Below are positions 13,150 through 19,351 of a DNA stretch of 20,279 nucleotides, one piece after another (positions within the stretch are counted from its first letter, which is position 1; every line of letters starts with the position of its first letter). The stretch is from a virus. A program made the translations under genes and the position numbers. A model generated the notes under the pieces. It saw nothing but the letters and a program-made list of their open reading frames with translations, ran no database searches and had not been told where the DNA came from. The DNA is taken from IMG/VR virus record IMGVR_UViG_3300017734_000120, positions 1 through 20,279 of that record. One strand, 5' to 3'.

Positions 13150-13353
13150 TTAAATATCCAATTTCTTTTCGTCTGAAATACATTTATACCTAGTTGCAAC
13201 ATATTCAGGCATCCAATCAGGCAATTCCATTGCTATCTCATATGCTCTCACTTCACATTGCTTCTCGGTTTGGTACGGACCTTTTATATCTTTTAGTGTC
13301 TGACAGACCTGTGGGTCTTTTAACATACAGACATATACAAATGCCTCAAACAT
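13150..13353 (-). CDS. Small Cys-containing protein with hydrophobic N-terminus (67 aa)
   Basis: MFEAFVYVCMLKDPQVCQTL is a short hydrophobic start. Four cysteines (C9, C17, C33, C58) could form disulfides outside the cytoplasm. I recall similar unnamed small proteins in marine phages. Layout parallels the 60-residue protein at 10032-10214. AAGGGATG lies about 10 bases before the ATG, which overlaps the end of the first late gene by 8 bases. Confidence 0.65.
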   Translation of the reverse strand: MFEAFVYVCMLKDPQVCQTLKDIKGPYQTEKQCEVRAYEIAMELPDWMPEYVATRYKCISDEKKLDI

Positions 13354-13555
13354 TGTCTAACATCCCTTCTGCTTTCATAGCTGTCTCTACATGCTTCAAG
13401 GTGTATCTCACACCTGTATCAGCTTCGATGGCAGCACGTACATAAAATACAGAACTATGGGGGATATGTAAGTTTTTTAGTTTATTAGTACGGATAGCAT
13501 CATAGAAACTTTCTAAAATGTTCTCTGGTGTCTCTAGTTTTACTGATTTTTTCAT
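13346..13555 (-). CDS. First gene of the leftward unit (69 aa, unknown)
   Basis: The sequence is MKKSVKLETPENILESFYDA, then IRTNKLKNLHIPHSSVFYVR and AAIEADTGVRYTLKHVETAM. It looks like a small alpha/beta or winged-helix-size domain (residues 9-65), possibly DNA-binding, but I do not recognise a family. The start at 13555 gives an ATG with no clear Shine-Dalgarno (ACCCCTTGACAATC precedes it). A TTG three codons upstream is the only alternative. It is the first gene after the strong leftward promoter at 13691-13719, a position often held by a regulator. Confidence 0.6.
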   Translation of the reverse strand: MKKSVKLETPENILESFYDAIRTNKLKNLHIPHSSVFYVRAAIEADTGVRYTLKHVETAMKAEGMLDNV

Positions 13556-13607
13556 GATTGTCAAGGGGTAAAGTATATTTAGTACAGATAATTAATATAT
13601 CTATGTA

Positions 13608-13831: not shown

Positions 13832-14294
13832 CTAGGTATATAAGTGTTCAACAGTTGTACTAGTGGTTAACACTTTAAAAATCACTTCTGTGTATTTCTC
13901 TGTATACGTATACCTGGTACCCCCACCTGTCGCATGCCCTGCCCACCTTGATTTCTATCACTTTTTCCTAGTTTCAAATAAAAAATACTCTTAGATATAG
14001 ATAAATTGTACATTTTTTATGCTTTACTCTAGCTAAGTCATTGATTTTATTACATTTTCTATGCTCTAACCAACTGATTATCTATCAGTTACCATTTAAT
14101 ATGTATCTCAAAACTACCTAACCCCTTGATATTGTTACGAAAATATACCCTAGATGCATGAAACCTTTTTTGCATTATATAGTAACAACTTTTTTTATAC
14201 CCTTACAAACCTTAAACAATCAAAATAATTCAATTAAAATATCCAATAAAAACAAACACTTAACAAATTAATTCAATTTATTTCAATTATTCGC
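13832..14294. other. AT-rich non-coding stretch with palindromes and a C-rich patch
   Basis: No gene was found. Contents: AGTG-GTTAA-CACT (13862-13874); a perfect 12-bp palindrome GTATACGTATAC (13902-13913); a C-rich patch (13919-13948) with CCCACCT twice, 20 bp apart, whose minus strand has several G-runs; a perfect hairpin AACTGAT-TATCT-ATCAGTT (14072-14090); and TTCAATT at 14229, 14272, 14282 and, just beyond, 14323. The AT-rich tract with short repeats beside a divergent promoter pair could be a replication origin. That is not shown. Confidence 0.4.
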
Positions 14295-14323
14295 TTTACA
14301 TTCTCATTCTCTTTTGCAATACT
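14295..14323 (+). promoter_or_regulatory. Possible rightward promoter before the structured stretch
   Basis: TTTACA (14295-14300, 5 of 6), 17 bases, AATACT (14318-14323, 4 of 6). Transcription would start near 14330, exactly where compact hairpin-forming sequence begins. A second weak candidate is TTGACT (14512-14517) with TCTACT (14535-14540), also 17 bases apart. Confidence 0.35.
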
Positions 14324-14329
14324 TCAATT

Positions 14330-14865
14330 ATCAGCAAGGCAACTAGCCAAGTTGGTAAGAAGTAAAAGAAAGTTTTTAGTTTGAGAAAAGCGTTCTTTTG
14401 ATAAGCAAAAGCAACTAAGTCTTATTAATCGCAACAAAACAAAATAAAAGGTTTCAGTTTTGAGATAATCGTTCTTGTAACAACTTTCCCAAAACATTTT
14501 AAAAAAACTTCTTGACTAACAAAACTAAAACTGCTCTACTGATAATACGAAAAGACAGAAGGAAACGACAACCTTTTAAAAAAATAGTGCAAGTGCGGAC
14601 TTTAAACCGAACCTATCAAGTGCAACTTCACTATACGATAGATGCGAATTCTTACCCATACGTGGGCAAGACGTGGGCTAACTAGGTGTGCCAAAAGGGT
14701 GGTAACTTCTTAGACTAGACAAGTGCCAAGTAAGAGGCTTGTTGAATATGGGAAAAGTGCGACAACAGAAATCCTAGGGTGGTCAATGGTAAGAGTGCGA
14801 GAAATTTCTAGAAGGGCAAGTTTTGTTTGTTGTCTTGTCCTTTCCCTACGGTGCTAGGGCTTTAA
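14330..14865 (+). ncRNA. Candidate structured non-coding RNA (or origin) in the control region
   Basis: About 540 bases have no credible reading frame but many local hairpins: CAACT/AGTTG (14341-14355); CTTTTG/CAAAAG (14395-14411); CTATC-A-AGTG...CACT-ATAC-GATAG (14613-14641); CCCA-UACG-UGGG (14655-14666), a tetraloop of UNCG type; ACAAG..CC/GG..CUUGU (14720-14742); GAAGGGCAAG with CUUGUCCUUUC (14811-14844); and finally CCCUA-CGGUGC-UAGGG (14844-14859) followed by a short U-run, as in a weak terminator. Its second half is visibly richer in G and C than the flanks. AGTGC occurs six times in 14586-14798. Identity unknown; both strands and ends are uncertain. Confidence 0.4.
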
Positions 14866-14948
14866 TCTACAAACTATACTACATGAAAAGTAAGCTAAGA
14901 GTTTAAGTGAAAAACACTTGGGTTGTATAACTAAAACAATTACCTTAT

Positions 14949-15059
14949 GGCATCAAGATAAATGCCTCATGTAATGAATTAAACCTTAATGACTAAGGGC
15001 ATTGTGATTACTTTTTATGATGCCCTTGACATTGTGTTGTTAAAGGGTATAATGCCCTT
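14949..15059 (+). promoter_or_regulatory. Operator array AAGGGCAT/ATGCCCTT over the rightward promoter
   Basis: GGCAT/ATGCC arms (14949-14966) are followed by AAGGGCAT (14995-15002), ATGCCCTT (15020-15027, touching the -35) and AAGGG-TATAATG-CCCTT (15043-15059, enclosing the -10). Repeated half-sites of one palindrome placed over both promoter elements are how phage early promoters are repressed. The binding protein is unknown and may be encoded in either unit. Confidence 0.6.
15026..15053 (+). promoter_or_regulatory. Rightward (early unit) promoter
   Basis: TTGACA (15026-15031), a 16-base spacer and TATAAT (15048-15053). Both hexamers are perfect. The predicted start is near 15060, about 28 bases before the first rightward ATG at 15088. 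Any coding frame beginning upstream of 15060 would not be on this transcript. Confidence 0.8.
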
Positions 15060-15087
15060 AACTTTAACCATTAATGGAGAATACAAC

Positions 15088-15444
15088 ATGGCTATTAAAA
15101 CAATCAATGCAACTTTTTGGAAACAATCAACGGGTTTAACGGGTCAAAACTTGACTGAATCAAATCAAAAAAAGTTTACTAGAGTTGCTAAAAAGTATAA
15201 GAAGGTTACAGAAAAGTCACTTTCTAAGACTAGATTATATAAGGCTAGTAGGGTTGGAGCAAGAAACTTGAAGAAGGAGTTTGGTACTAGAATTGGTAGT
15301 ACTAGCATTGCGACCTTTGAAATGTTACTTACTGCAATTGATAAAGAACTTAATGGAGTTAAGCACTCTATTGAGTTTGGTGAGTTTCAAGTTAAGTCTT
15401 ACAATGACTTTGCTAACTCAACTGCTACTAGGAAAAAAGCCTAG
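15088..15444 (+). CDS. First gene of the rightward unit (118 aa, unknown)
   Basis: The sequence starts MAIKTINATFWKQSTGLTGQ and has a very basic stretch (FTRVAKKYKKVTEKSLSKTR, then VGARNLKKEFG), then STSIATFEMLLTAIDKELNG and a polar tail ending TATRKKA. I do not recognise the family. A small basic first early gene could be a host-takeover, anti-repressor or DNA-binding protein. The ATG at 15088 is chosen because it has GGAG at 8-base spacing and lies downstream of the promoter; the same frame is open from an ATG at 14989, but that lies upstream of the promoter. A strong hairpin follows the stop. Confidence 0.7.
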   Translation: MAIKTINATFWKQSTGLTGQNLTESNQKKFTRVAKKYKKVTEKSLSKTRLYKASRVGARNLKKEFGTRIGSTSIATFEMLLTAIDKELNGVKHSIEFGEFQVKSYNDFANSTATRKKA

Positions 15445-17884: not shown

Positions 17885-18158
17885 TGCTAGTGCAAACATA
17901 ACTGAAGTAAACCTAAAACTAAAACCAAAAGAGTTATCTATGATTGTTGACTCACTCTATAGAGATTTAGATGATATGACAACAGGTAATGATGATTTCT
18001 CACAAGTAACTTTGAATGTTGATGGTAAGCTACCTTTCTATAAAGTAGAAAAACATTCTGACTCACACGTTAGAAAATGGTTTATCAAGTATAGAAGATT
18101 GGCTGTACAACTAGATAGAATGTATGTTAAGGTAAGAAAACTAGGAGGAACATGGTAA
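17877..18158 (+). CDS. Small protein before the methyltransferase (93 aa)
   Basis: The sequence MANASANITEVNLKLKPKEL then SMIVDSLYRDLDDMTTGNDD and RKWFIKYRRLAVQLDRMYVK looks like two helical blocks with a short strand region between them. The family is not recognised. The ATG at 17877 has GGAG at 7-base spacing; an ATG at 17865 is less well placed. Its stop forms TAATG with the methyltransferase start. Confidence 0.65.
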   Translation: MANASANITEVNLKLKPKELSMIVDSLYRDLDDMTTGNDDFSQVTLNVDGKLPFYKVEKHSDSHVRKWFIKYRRLAVQLDRMYVKVRKLGGTW

Positions 18159-19351
18159 TGAATGTACTAAGTTTATTTGATGGTTGTAGTGGTGGTCAAC
18201 TTGCCTTGCAAAAGGCAAATATCCACGTAGACAACTACTATGCAAGTGAGATTGACAAGTATGCAATCAAGGTAACTCAAGCTAACTTTCCTAACACTAT
18301 TCAGCTAGGAGATGTTACAGACTTAGACCCACATGAAATAAAATATTGGGATATTGATTTGCTTATGGGTGGTTCGCCTTGTCAAGGCTTCTCATTTGCA
18401 GGACATCAGCTTAACTTTGATGACCCACGTAGTAAGTTATTCTTTGACTTCATACGTATAAGAGATGAGTGTAAGCCTAAGTATGTACTGCTAGAGAATG
18501 TACGAATGGCTAAGAAGTCTCAAGATGTTATATCTAAGTACATGGGATTTGAACCACAAGTATTGAACTCTAGTAGAGTATCAGCACAAAACAGATATAG
18601 ACTATATTGGTTTGGTAGACTATACTATGATGTTGAAGATGACTTTGAACACTATCCTAAGTACGAGCAAATACCTATCCCACCTATGATTGACAAGGGT
18701 ATCACTATGCAAGACATACTAGAAGATGGCTATGCTACAGATGAGATGACTAGCAATGGCAAGTCTCATTGTCTTACTGCTAGGTATAATGGTGCAGTAT
18801 GGTGGAATAGTATTGAACGTAAGCAACGTACTATGGTACTCAAGGATAATCCTACCATGTCTAAAGATGGATTGATTAGGGTAGGTACTGCTGACCTCAA
18901 AGGACATGACTCAATCAAACGAGTGTATGCACAAGAAGGTAAAGCACCTACACTTACTACCATGCAAGGTGGACACAGAGAACCAAAGGTTGCAGTAGGT
19001 AGGATTGTTAATCGTAGACTTGATGAGCATGGTACTAGGAAAGATGACCAACTTGAGTTACCTTACACAAGACAGATAGAAGTTCGTAAAGATGAGAAGT
19101 CTAATTGTCTCACTACTGTACAAAAAGATAACGTGCTAGTCTCTAAAGATATGTGGCGAAAGCTAACACCCTTAGAGTGTGAACGATTGCAGACATTACC
19201 TGACAACTACACCAATCATGTATCCAATAGTCAGAGATACAAGATGATTGGAAATGGGTGGACAGTTGATGTGATTGCACACATACTCAAGGGTATTCCA
19301 TTAGCTGAGACATGGCATGAAATGTATAACAACAACAAGGAGATGGTATAA
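18158..19351 (+). CDS. C5 cytosine-specific DNA methyltransferase
   Basis: It transfers methyl from S-adenosylmethionine to carbon 5 of cytosine. Residues counted from 18158: motif I LFDGCSGG (6-13), motif IV GGSPCQGFSFAG (71-82) with catalytic C75, motif VI LLENV (111-115), motif VIII QNRYRLYW (144-151), motif IX KLTPLECERLQTLP (335-348) and motif X IGNGWTVDVIAH (364-375). Between VIII and IX lies the target-recognition region with three KxxxLT(T/A) repeats. Its 397 residues are normal for the family. No restriction partner is next to it, so protection of phage DNA is likely. The ATG at 18158 fits AGGAGG 9 bases upstream and the TAATG junction; 18152 is less likely. Confidence 0.93.
   Translation: MNVLSLFDGCSGGQLALQKANIHVDNYYASEIDKYAIKVTQANFPNTIQLGDVTDLDPHEIKYWDIDLLMGGSPCQGFSFAGHQLNFDDPRSKLFFDFIRIRDECKPKYVLLENVRMAKKSQDVISKYMGFEPQVLNSSRVSAQNRYRLYWFGRLYYDVEDDFEHYPKYEQIPIPPMIDKGITMQDILEDGYATDEMTSNGKSHCLTARYNGAVWWNSIERKQRTMVLKDNPTMSKDGLIRVGTADLKGHDSIKRVYAQEGKAPTLTTMQGGHREPKVAVGRIVNRRLDEHGTRKDDQLELPYTRQIEVRKDEKSNCLTTVQKDNVLVSKDMWRKLTPLECERLQTLPDNYTNHVSNSQRYKMIGNGWTVDVIAHILKGIPLAETWHEMYNNNKEMV

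Follow-up and report, generated by a model that had tools for sequence, protein, structure and literature searches.

A Predicted Family of Large Structured Noncoding RNAs in the Divergent Region of HMO-2011-Type Phages

The DNA analyzed in this study (the window, i.e., the whole virus record of 20,279 bases) is a fragment of an HMO-2011-type phage, and comparison with its relatives points to a structured RNA of ~430–480 bases on the plus strand of the region between its early and late gene blocks. The compensatory changes described below leave us nearly certain that ~14559–14976 specifies a plus-strand structured RNA under selection. The homologues found come from no fewer than 20 different phage contigs. 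Judged by its extensive secondary structure, which is supported by covariation, and its lack of a conserved reading frame, the RNA defines a new family among the large structured noncoding RNAs of phages, like GOLLD and ROOL in kind but belonging to neither. This strongly selected family in the HMO-2011-type phages would be another large phage RNA beside those two. The features are compiled in Table 1.

Table 1. Predicted RNA, its structural elements, promoters and flanking genes (window positions).
Feature	Position	Strand	Description
First gene of the leftward (late) block	13346..13564	-	72-aa protein, function unknown
Candidate RNA promoter	14512..14540	+	TTGACT (14512–14517), 17-base spacer, TCTACT (14535–14540); from consensus
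Structured RNA	14547..14976, possibly to 15028	+	Start placed from promoter position and first covarying hairpin; end from closing helix of 3' domain
5' hairpin	14559..14575	+	Conserved loop AAACGACAA; stem AAGG/CCTT, AGAG/CTCT, AGAC/GTCT, AGGG/CCCT in relatives
Small hairpin	14597..14608	+	GG..CC / GA..TC / AG..CT
Two-step hairpin	14613..14641	+	CTATC/GATAG; inner AGTG/CACT, AGGG/CCCT, AGAG/CTCT; pair 14621–14630 significant
Long-range helix	14645–14656 with 14788–14799	+	Changes on both sides in 6 pairs
Hairpin ACGT-GGGCAAG-ACGT	14660..14674	+	Conserved loop GGGCAAG; 100% paired, 2 pairs changed on both sides
Helix 14676–14692 with 14768–14784	14676..14784	+	GGCTA-CTAGG/CCTAG-GG-TGGTC; sequence nearly invariant; closes variable arm
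Variable arm	14698..14764	+	Helix 14707–14712/14749–14754 and hairpin 14719–14742
Signature hairpin	14814..14840	+	Covarying 7-bp stem, invariant 13-base loop UUUUGUNURUUGU; in all four sequence groups
Short variable hairpin	14844..14860	+	CCCTA..TAGGG; no terminator
3' domain	14877..14976	+	10-bp closing helix, long arm 14890–14948, hairpin 14949–14966 (GGCAT..ATGCC / CGTAT..ATACG)
Boundary hairpin	14994..15028	+	TAAGGGCAT..ATGCCCTTG; abuts early promoter; terminator-like, weak T tract
Early promoter	15026..15053	+	TTGACA-16-TATAAT, 12/12; separate from RNA promoter
First early gene	15088..15444	+	118 aa, function unknown; varies between members while the RNA does not

Genomic Setting

HMO-2011-type phages are reported to be abundant in the sea, and isolates have been obtained on SAR116, RCA roseobacters and SAR11. 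The terminase and portal genes place the window among the HMO-2011-type podoviruses, and its portal is 76–78% identical to those of HMO-2011 and CRP-1. The late block runs leftwards and the early block, which includes a DNA methyltransferase gene (PHROG 116) at 18152–19351, rightwards. Between the start of the first leftward gene (13564) and that of the first early gene (15088) lies an intergenic gap of ~1.5 kb in which no credible genes were found; ARAGORN detected no tRNA anywhere in the window. The sole plus-strand open reading frame in the RNA, of 57 codons (14512–14685), is broken by stops or frameshifts in 13 of the 13 relatives examined, which rules out a coding potential for this stretch. 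The absence of credible genes had been proposed in an earlier note on this DNA, as had a G+C content above that of the flanks, and both descriptions hold (0.39–0.45 at 14500–14900 vs. 0.25–0.31 at 14100–14599).

Evidence for a Selected Structure

The fold of the lone sequence was no more stable than those of its shuffles (z of +0.73 for 14330–14880 and +1.10 for 14580–14865). Single-sequence folding was therefore not used as evidence, and the seven local hairpins from which the earlier note had argued for an RNA carry no weight of their own. Consensus folds were obtained with RNAalifold on alignments of the relatives nearest to the window (i.e., group A), and pairs were counted in one of these alignments, A7, with 14 distinct sequences. 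The A7 consensus contains 111 pairs, canonical in 94.9% of the cells. Changes on both sides with pairing kept were found at 39 pairs in 132 cells, values that no shuffle of A7 reached (22 pairs and 40 cells in the shuffled control) and that dropped to 5–9 pairs and 8–15 cells when the partner was slid by 1–3 bases. Scores in the 3' domain are depressed because this domain is different in two members, L126 and L202, and A7 misaligns it in them.

All column pairs were also compared in a structure-blind test, in which the G statistic with average-product correction was set against a null in which the observed substitutions were placed anew on an unchanged tree. The five top pairs (14882–14971, 14621–14630, 14650–14794, 14883–14970 and 14598–14607; E of ~0–0.05 in three runs) are all canonical, one of them with a single exception, and all fall within predicted helices, with 14882–14971 and 14883–14970 significant in the 3' domain. 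In the upstream control (14230–14575), two top pairs were non-canonical yet had an E of 0.012, which indicates that the E-values of this test are somewhat too optimistic; its weight rests on the identity of the top pairs rather than on the E-values. Compensatory changes across homologues, which had been set beforehand as the check on a large structured phage RNA beside the early promoter, thus stand far above shuffles, slides and the phylogeny-preserving null, and they argue for such an RNA.

The consensus pairs include 173 G-U cells vs. 16 A-C cells, an excess that identifies the plus strand as the RNA. A conserved DNA element, such as a packaging or attachment site or a site of regulator binding, would be in keeping with the other conserved DNA blocks in the gap (13850–13950 and 14012–14065), but it is a very improbable explanation, given that the compensatory changes come with G-U wobble on one strand only, that the hairpin loops are conserved apart from their stems and that covariation is concentrated in helices rather than in sites.

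Architecture of the RNA

The 5' hairpin is paired in 100% of the sequences, and three of its four pairs have changed on both sides. The single-stranded GCGAA stands between the two-step hairpin and the 5' strand of the long-range helix, which encloses the hairpin 14660–14674 and the nearly invariant helix that closes the variable arm. The sequence of the long-range helix turns over from CUUACC/GGUAAG to CUUAUC/GAUAAG (L194), UUUCCC/GGGAAA (L126) and UCUAGC/GCUAGA (L202). A UACG-tetraloop stem, previously suggested at 14655–14666, has no compensatory support; comparative pairing replaces it with pairing of 14651–14656 (CUUACC) with 14788–14793 (GGUAAG) and of 14660–14663 with 14671–14674 (ACGU/ACGU, AUGU/ACAU and ACAU/AUGU). 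The variable arm accommodates insertions of tens of bases, which are whole hairpins in L194 and L197 and are longer in L091.

The signature hairpin, with the motif CUAG-UUUUGUNURUUGU-CUAG, is kept in the divergent relatives. Its loop was present in 25 of the 25 sequences inspected, an invariance that is partly a product of the search, since some members were found through this motif; stem pairing outside the motif is not so affected. In 15 distinct sequences the stem is 100% paired and has changes on both sides. Further conserved single-stranded segments of the RNA are GCGAA, GUGCGAC and GGGCGAUAA.

The final stem of the earlier description (14844–14859) is real, being CCCUA/UAGGG in the window and CCUUA/UAAGG in L090, but the view of it as terminator-like has to be given up since the RNA continues beyond it and most relatives have a larger hairpin at this place. 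The extent first assigned to the RNA, 14330–14865, was too long on the left, where 14330 to ~14540 comprises the promoter and upstream DNA and lies outside the RNA, and too short on the right.

Relatives and Synteny

Relatives were gathered from the first early protein, the first leftward protein and pattern scans with conserved stretches, and all members are contigs of an uncultured-virus collection. They comprise group A, near the window (L088, L089, L090, L091, L092, L094, L095, L096, L099, L126, L194, L197 and L202), group B (L199, L201, L203, L228 and L288) and groups C and D (L200, L210, L248, L256, L213 and L291); the family is surely larger than the members listed. Cross-group profile matches had E-values of 1e-8 to 1e-17 and better (for example, down to 7e-15 for B vs. 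A, 5e-64 for D vs. C and 2e-13 for C vs. B with L228). A core covariance model (R1) gave 61–98 bits for members vs. ~11–21 bits for chance matches. A pattern scan with GGTGGTCAATGGTAAG also returned matches due to chance, most of them within coding DNA; these were set aside.

The divergent relatives in the four sequence groups retain the synteny, the signature hairpin and the architecture. Most of the contigs long enough for testing carry an HMO-2011-type portal (77–92% identity) or DNA polymerase (62–78%). The RNA and the homologue of the first leftward gene could both be located in 15 of the 16 records checked, and in these the RNA is present once, divergent from that gene and ~1.1–1.7 kb away from it. 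L197 and L182 both derive from IMGVR_UViG_3300017767_000153, a contig that has two copies of the leftward gene in opposite orientation (5664 on the plus and 11451 on the minus strand), with the RNA beside one only; it is possibly a chimeric assembly.

The RNA is accessory and patchy among HMO-2011-type phages. Among the 40 relatives of the neighboring gene with enough upstream sequence, 7 have it and 33 do not, and the gap is ~0.7 kb shorter in most relatives without it. No homologue was found in the stretches examined of twelve sequenced relatives (HMO-2011, eight CRP phages, HTVC033P, HTVC115P and ctYwJ313). In bacterial and archaeal genomes, 13 pattern matches lacked the full stem, and the five scored by the core model matched in the loop only. 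That many relatives do without the RNA speaks against its being essential for replication or packaging. Its patchy spread among otherwise similar phages makes a comparison of phages with and without it practical, and the alignment and covariance model can be used directly on metatranscriptomes and larger metagenome collections.

Stretches of 1.2–1.5 kb with no annotated genes, or only very short ones, were seen at the corresponding place in other HMO-2011-type phages, namely CRP-207 (53415–54895; L329), CRP-9 (54902–56157; L328) and ctYwJ313 (43120–44595; L333). They do not match the window RNA and may hold other RNAs.

Comparison with Known RNAs

No Rfam 15 family matched the RNA at the gathering thresholds or, with relaxed ones, for the window region (to E 10) or groups B–D (to E 1); three weak matches in the window region were attributed to chance. 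The Rfam covariance models of GOLLD, ROOL, group I introns, pRNA, 6S RNA and tmRNA gave no match to it, and ARAGORN detected nothing; the earlier opinion that the RNA could be identified as neither GOLLD nor ROOL is thus confirmed. Searches of open-access papers turned up no account of an RNA of this kind in HMO-2011-type phages.

The GOLLD cage is a homo-oligomeric 14-mer and the ROOL cage is an 8-mer. GOLLD and ROOL are large ornate phage RNAs that form such RNA cages (PMC12286853). The RNA described here resembles GOLLD in being a large, elaborately folded phage noncoding RNA that was found via covariation and whose function is unknown (PMC12286853), but it is about half as long, GOLLD often exceeding 800 bases, and GOLLD is often near phage tRNA genes. 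In contrast, the window lacks tRNAs, the tRNA of L291 (791–861) is more than 1 kb from its RNA and, unlike GOLLD, the window RNA sits between early and late blocks. ROOL (Rumen-Originating, Ornate, Large) is likewise a large phage RNA with an elaborate structure and no known function, and it proved dispensable in one strain that was studied (PMC12286853). The ROOL studied, at 659 nt, is longer than the present RNA, which belongs to HMO-2011-type podoviruses and lies in a window free of tRNAs. Phage ICP1 makes an abundant noncoding transcript of ~800 bases, a size like those of GOLLD and ROOL, from a long gene-free stretch with no nearby tRNAs (PMC7567579). The likeness is one of kind; ICP1 is a different phage in which expression was shown, whereas the window RNA is predicted from sequence. 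Like the packaging RNA (pRNA) of phi29, the RNA is phage-encoded and structured, but an indispensable function in packaging is hard to reconcile with its accessory distribution.

It is improbable that the RNA belongs to a known family of ribozymes or other RNAs (e.g., RNase P-like, group I intron, GOLLD or ROOL) but has diverged beyond detection by Rfam, in view of the negative searches at the permissive thresholds given above. Apart from an ornateness like that of GOLLD and ROOL, such membership could be read from the short motifs GGUAAGAGUGC and AGUGCGAC..ACAGAAA, which we take to resemble conserved regions of RNase P. RNase P RNA itself had no Rfam match, however, and no unpaired GGUAAGAG core motif was seen. 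RNase P and permuted RNase P were rejected because the RNase P-like GGUAAG forms one side of a covarying helix, and relatives have GAUAAG, GGGAAA or GCUAGA in its place. The resemblance of the motifs is due to chance.

Promoters and Proposed Role

The putative RNA promoter is preceded by an A/T-rich, UP-like stretch and matches the consensus at 9 of 12 positions in the window, 11 of 12 in L228 and 10 of 12 in L094 and L099. TTGAC followed by a spacer of 17–18 bases recurs at this site in most members, the best being L228 (TTGACA-17-TATACT), L094 and L099; several members have a weak -10 element. The early promoter downstream of the RNA scores 10–12 of 12 in nearly all other members. An inverted repeat, AAGGG-TATAATG-CCCTT (15042–15060), spans the -10 box of the early promoter, is conserved in group A and looks like a repressor operator.

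The boundary hairpin may terminate transcription of the RNA or form its last domain. Its pairing is retained in groups B–D though the stem sequence turns over strongly, and its apex is partly conserved (UGCGCUAGUC..GACAGUUAAGCA in most of groups B–D). Many members have a strong hairpin adjoining the early promoter, with T tracts that are weak except in L228.

The reading that we favor, with a probability of about 0.6, is an independent, trans-acting accessory RNA whose role is carried as a folded RNA or as an RNA-protein particle. The host sigma-70-type RNA polymerase would transcribe the RNA from its own promoter at 14512–14540, and the separate transcript would end near the boundary hairpin. 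The transcript is predicted to fold into the 5' hairpin, a multibranched core closed by the long-range helix, the signature hairpin and the 3' domain, and to act in trans during infection; the invariant loop and the single-stranded segments GCGAA, GUGCGAC and GGGCGAUAA would be its contact sites. More tentatively, the RNA could be a new class of phage RNA that forms an RNA-only or RNA-protein assembly with a dispensable role, directed at the host or against competitors, in which the 13-base loop makes the contact. Antisense pairing of the signature loop was considered and dropped, as its complementarity revealed no consistent target among phage leaders or within the RNA.

A cis-acting leader appears doubtful by comparison. 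In that case the transcript of the early operon would begin with the RNA as its long 5' section, which would control early gene expression by attenuation, antitermination or ligand sensing; large conserved RNA leaders do control phage operons, an example being the put antitermination RNA of HK022. The RNA lies directly upstream of the early genes on the same strand, and six members of group A (L091, L092, L094, L095, L096 and L099) have no strong hairpin between the RNA and the early genes, so that read-through as a leader is possible in them. Other members, however, do have a strong hairpin there, and in almost all members the near-perfect early promoter stands between the RNA and the genes, which therefore need no read-through. 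Moreover, the homologue of the window's first early gene is the first downstream gene in most of groups A, B and D, but L228, L200, L210 and L194/L197 have other first downstream genes and retain the RNA. A leader adapted to one particular gene would hardly be expected to persist while that gene changes.

We consider it unlikely that the RNA serves as a primer or activator of replication starting in the divergent region, in the manner of ColE1 RNA II or an R-loop origin. Structured primer RNAs occur in plasmids, and the cumulative GC-skew minimum falls in the divergent region that holds the RNA, but gene orientation also explains the switch in skew. The sampled HMO-2011-type isolates, in the stretches examined, and most close relatives are without the RNA; as phages of the same type lack it, replication does not depend on it.

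Other Conserved Elements of the Divergent Region

Upstream of the putative RNA promoter, 14330–14500 is conserved in group A and contains a plausible hairpin (GATAAG..CTTATT / ACAAG..CTTGT) whose covariation is not convincing; in groups B and C, different motifs are conserved upstream of this promoter (GCATAAGCAC..GTAACCTTGCTAG). About 90 bases at 13850–13950 are shared with HMO-2011 (L005) and with many contigs of the HMO-2011 type in which the RNA is absent; they may represent the region of the late promoter or some other DNA element. Two phages, HTVC115P of Pelagibacter and CRP-603 of Roseobacter, have intergenic DNA that is 81–91% identical to a short AT-rich segment at 14012–14065.
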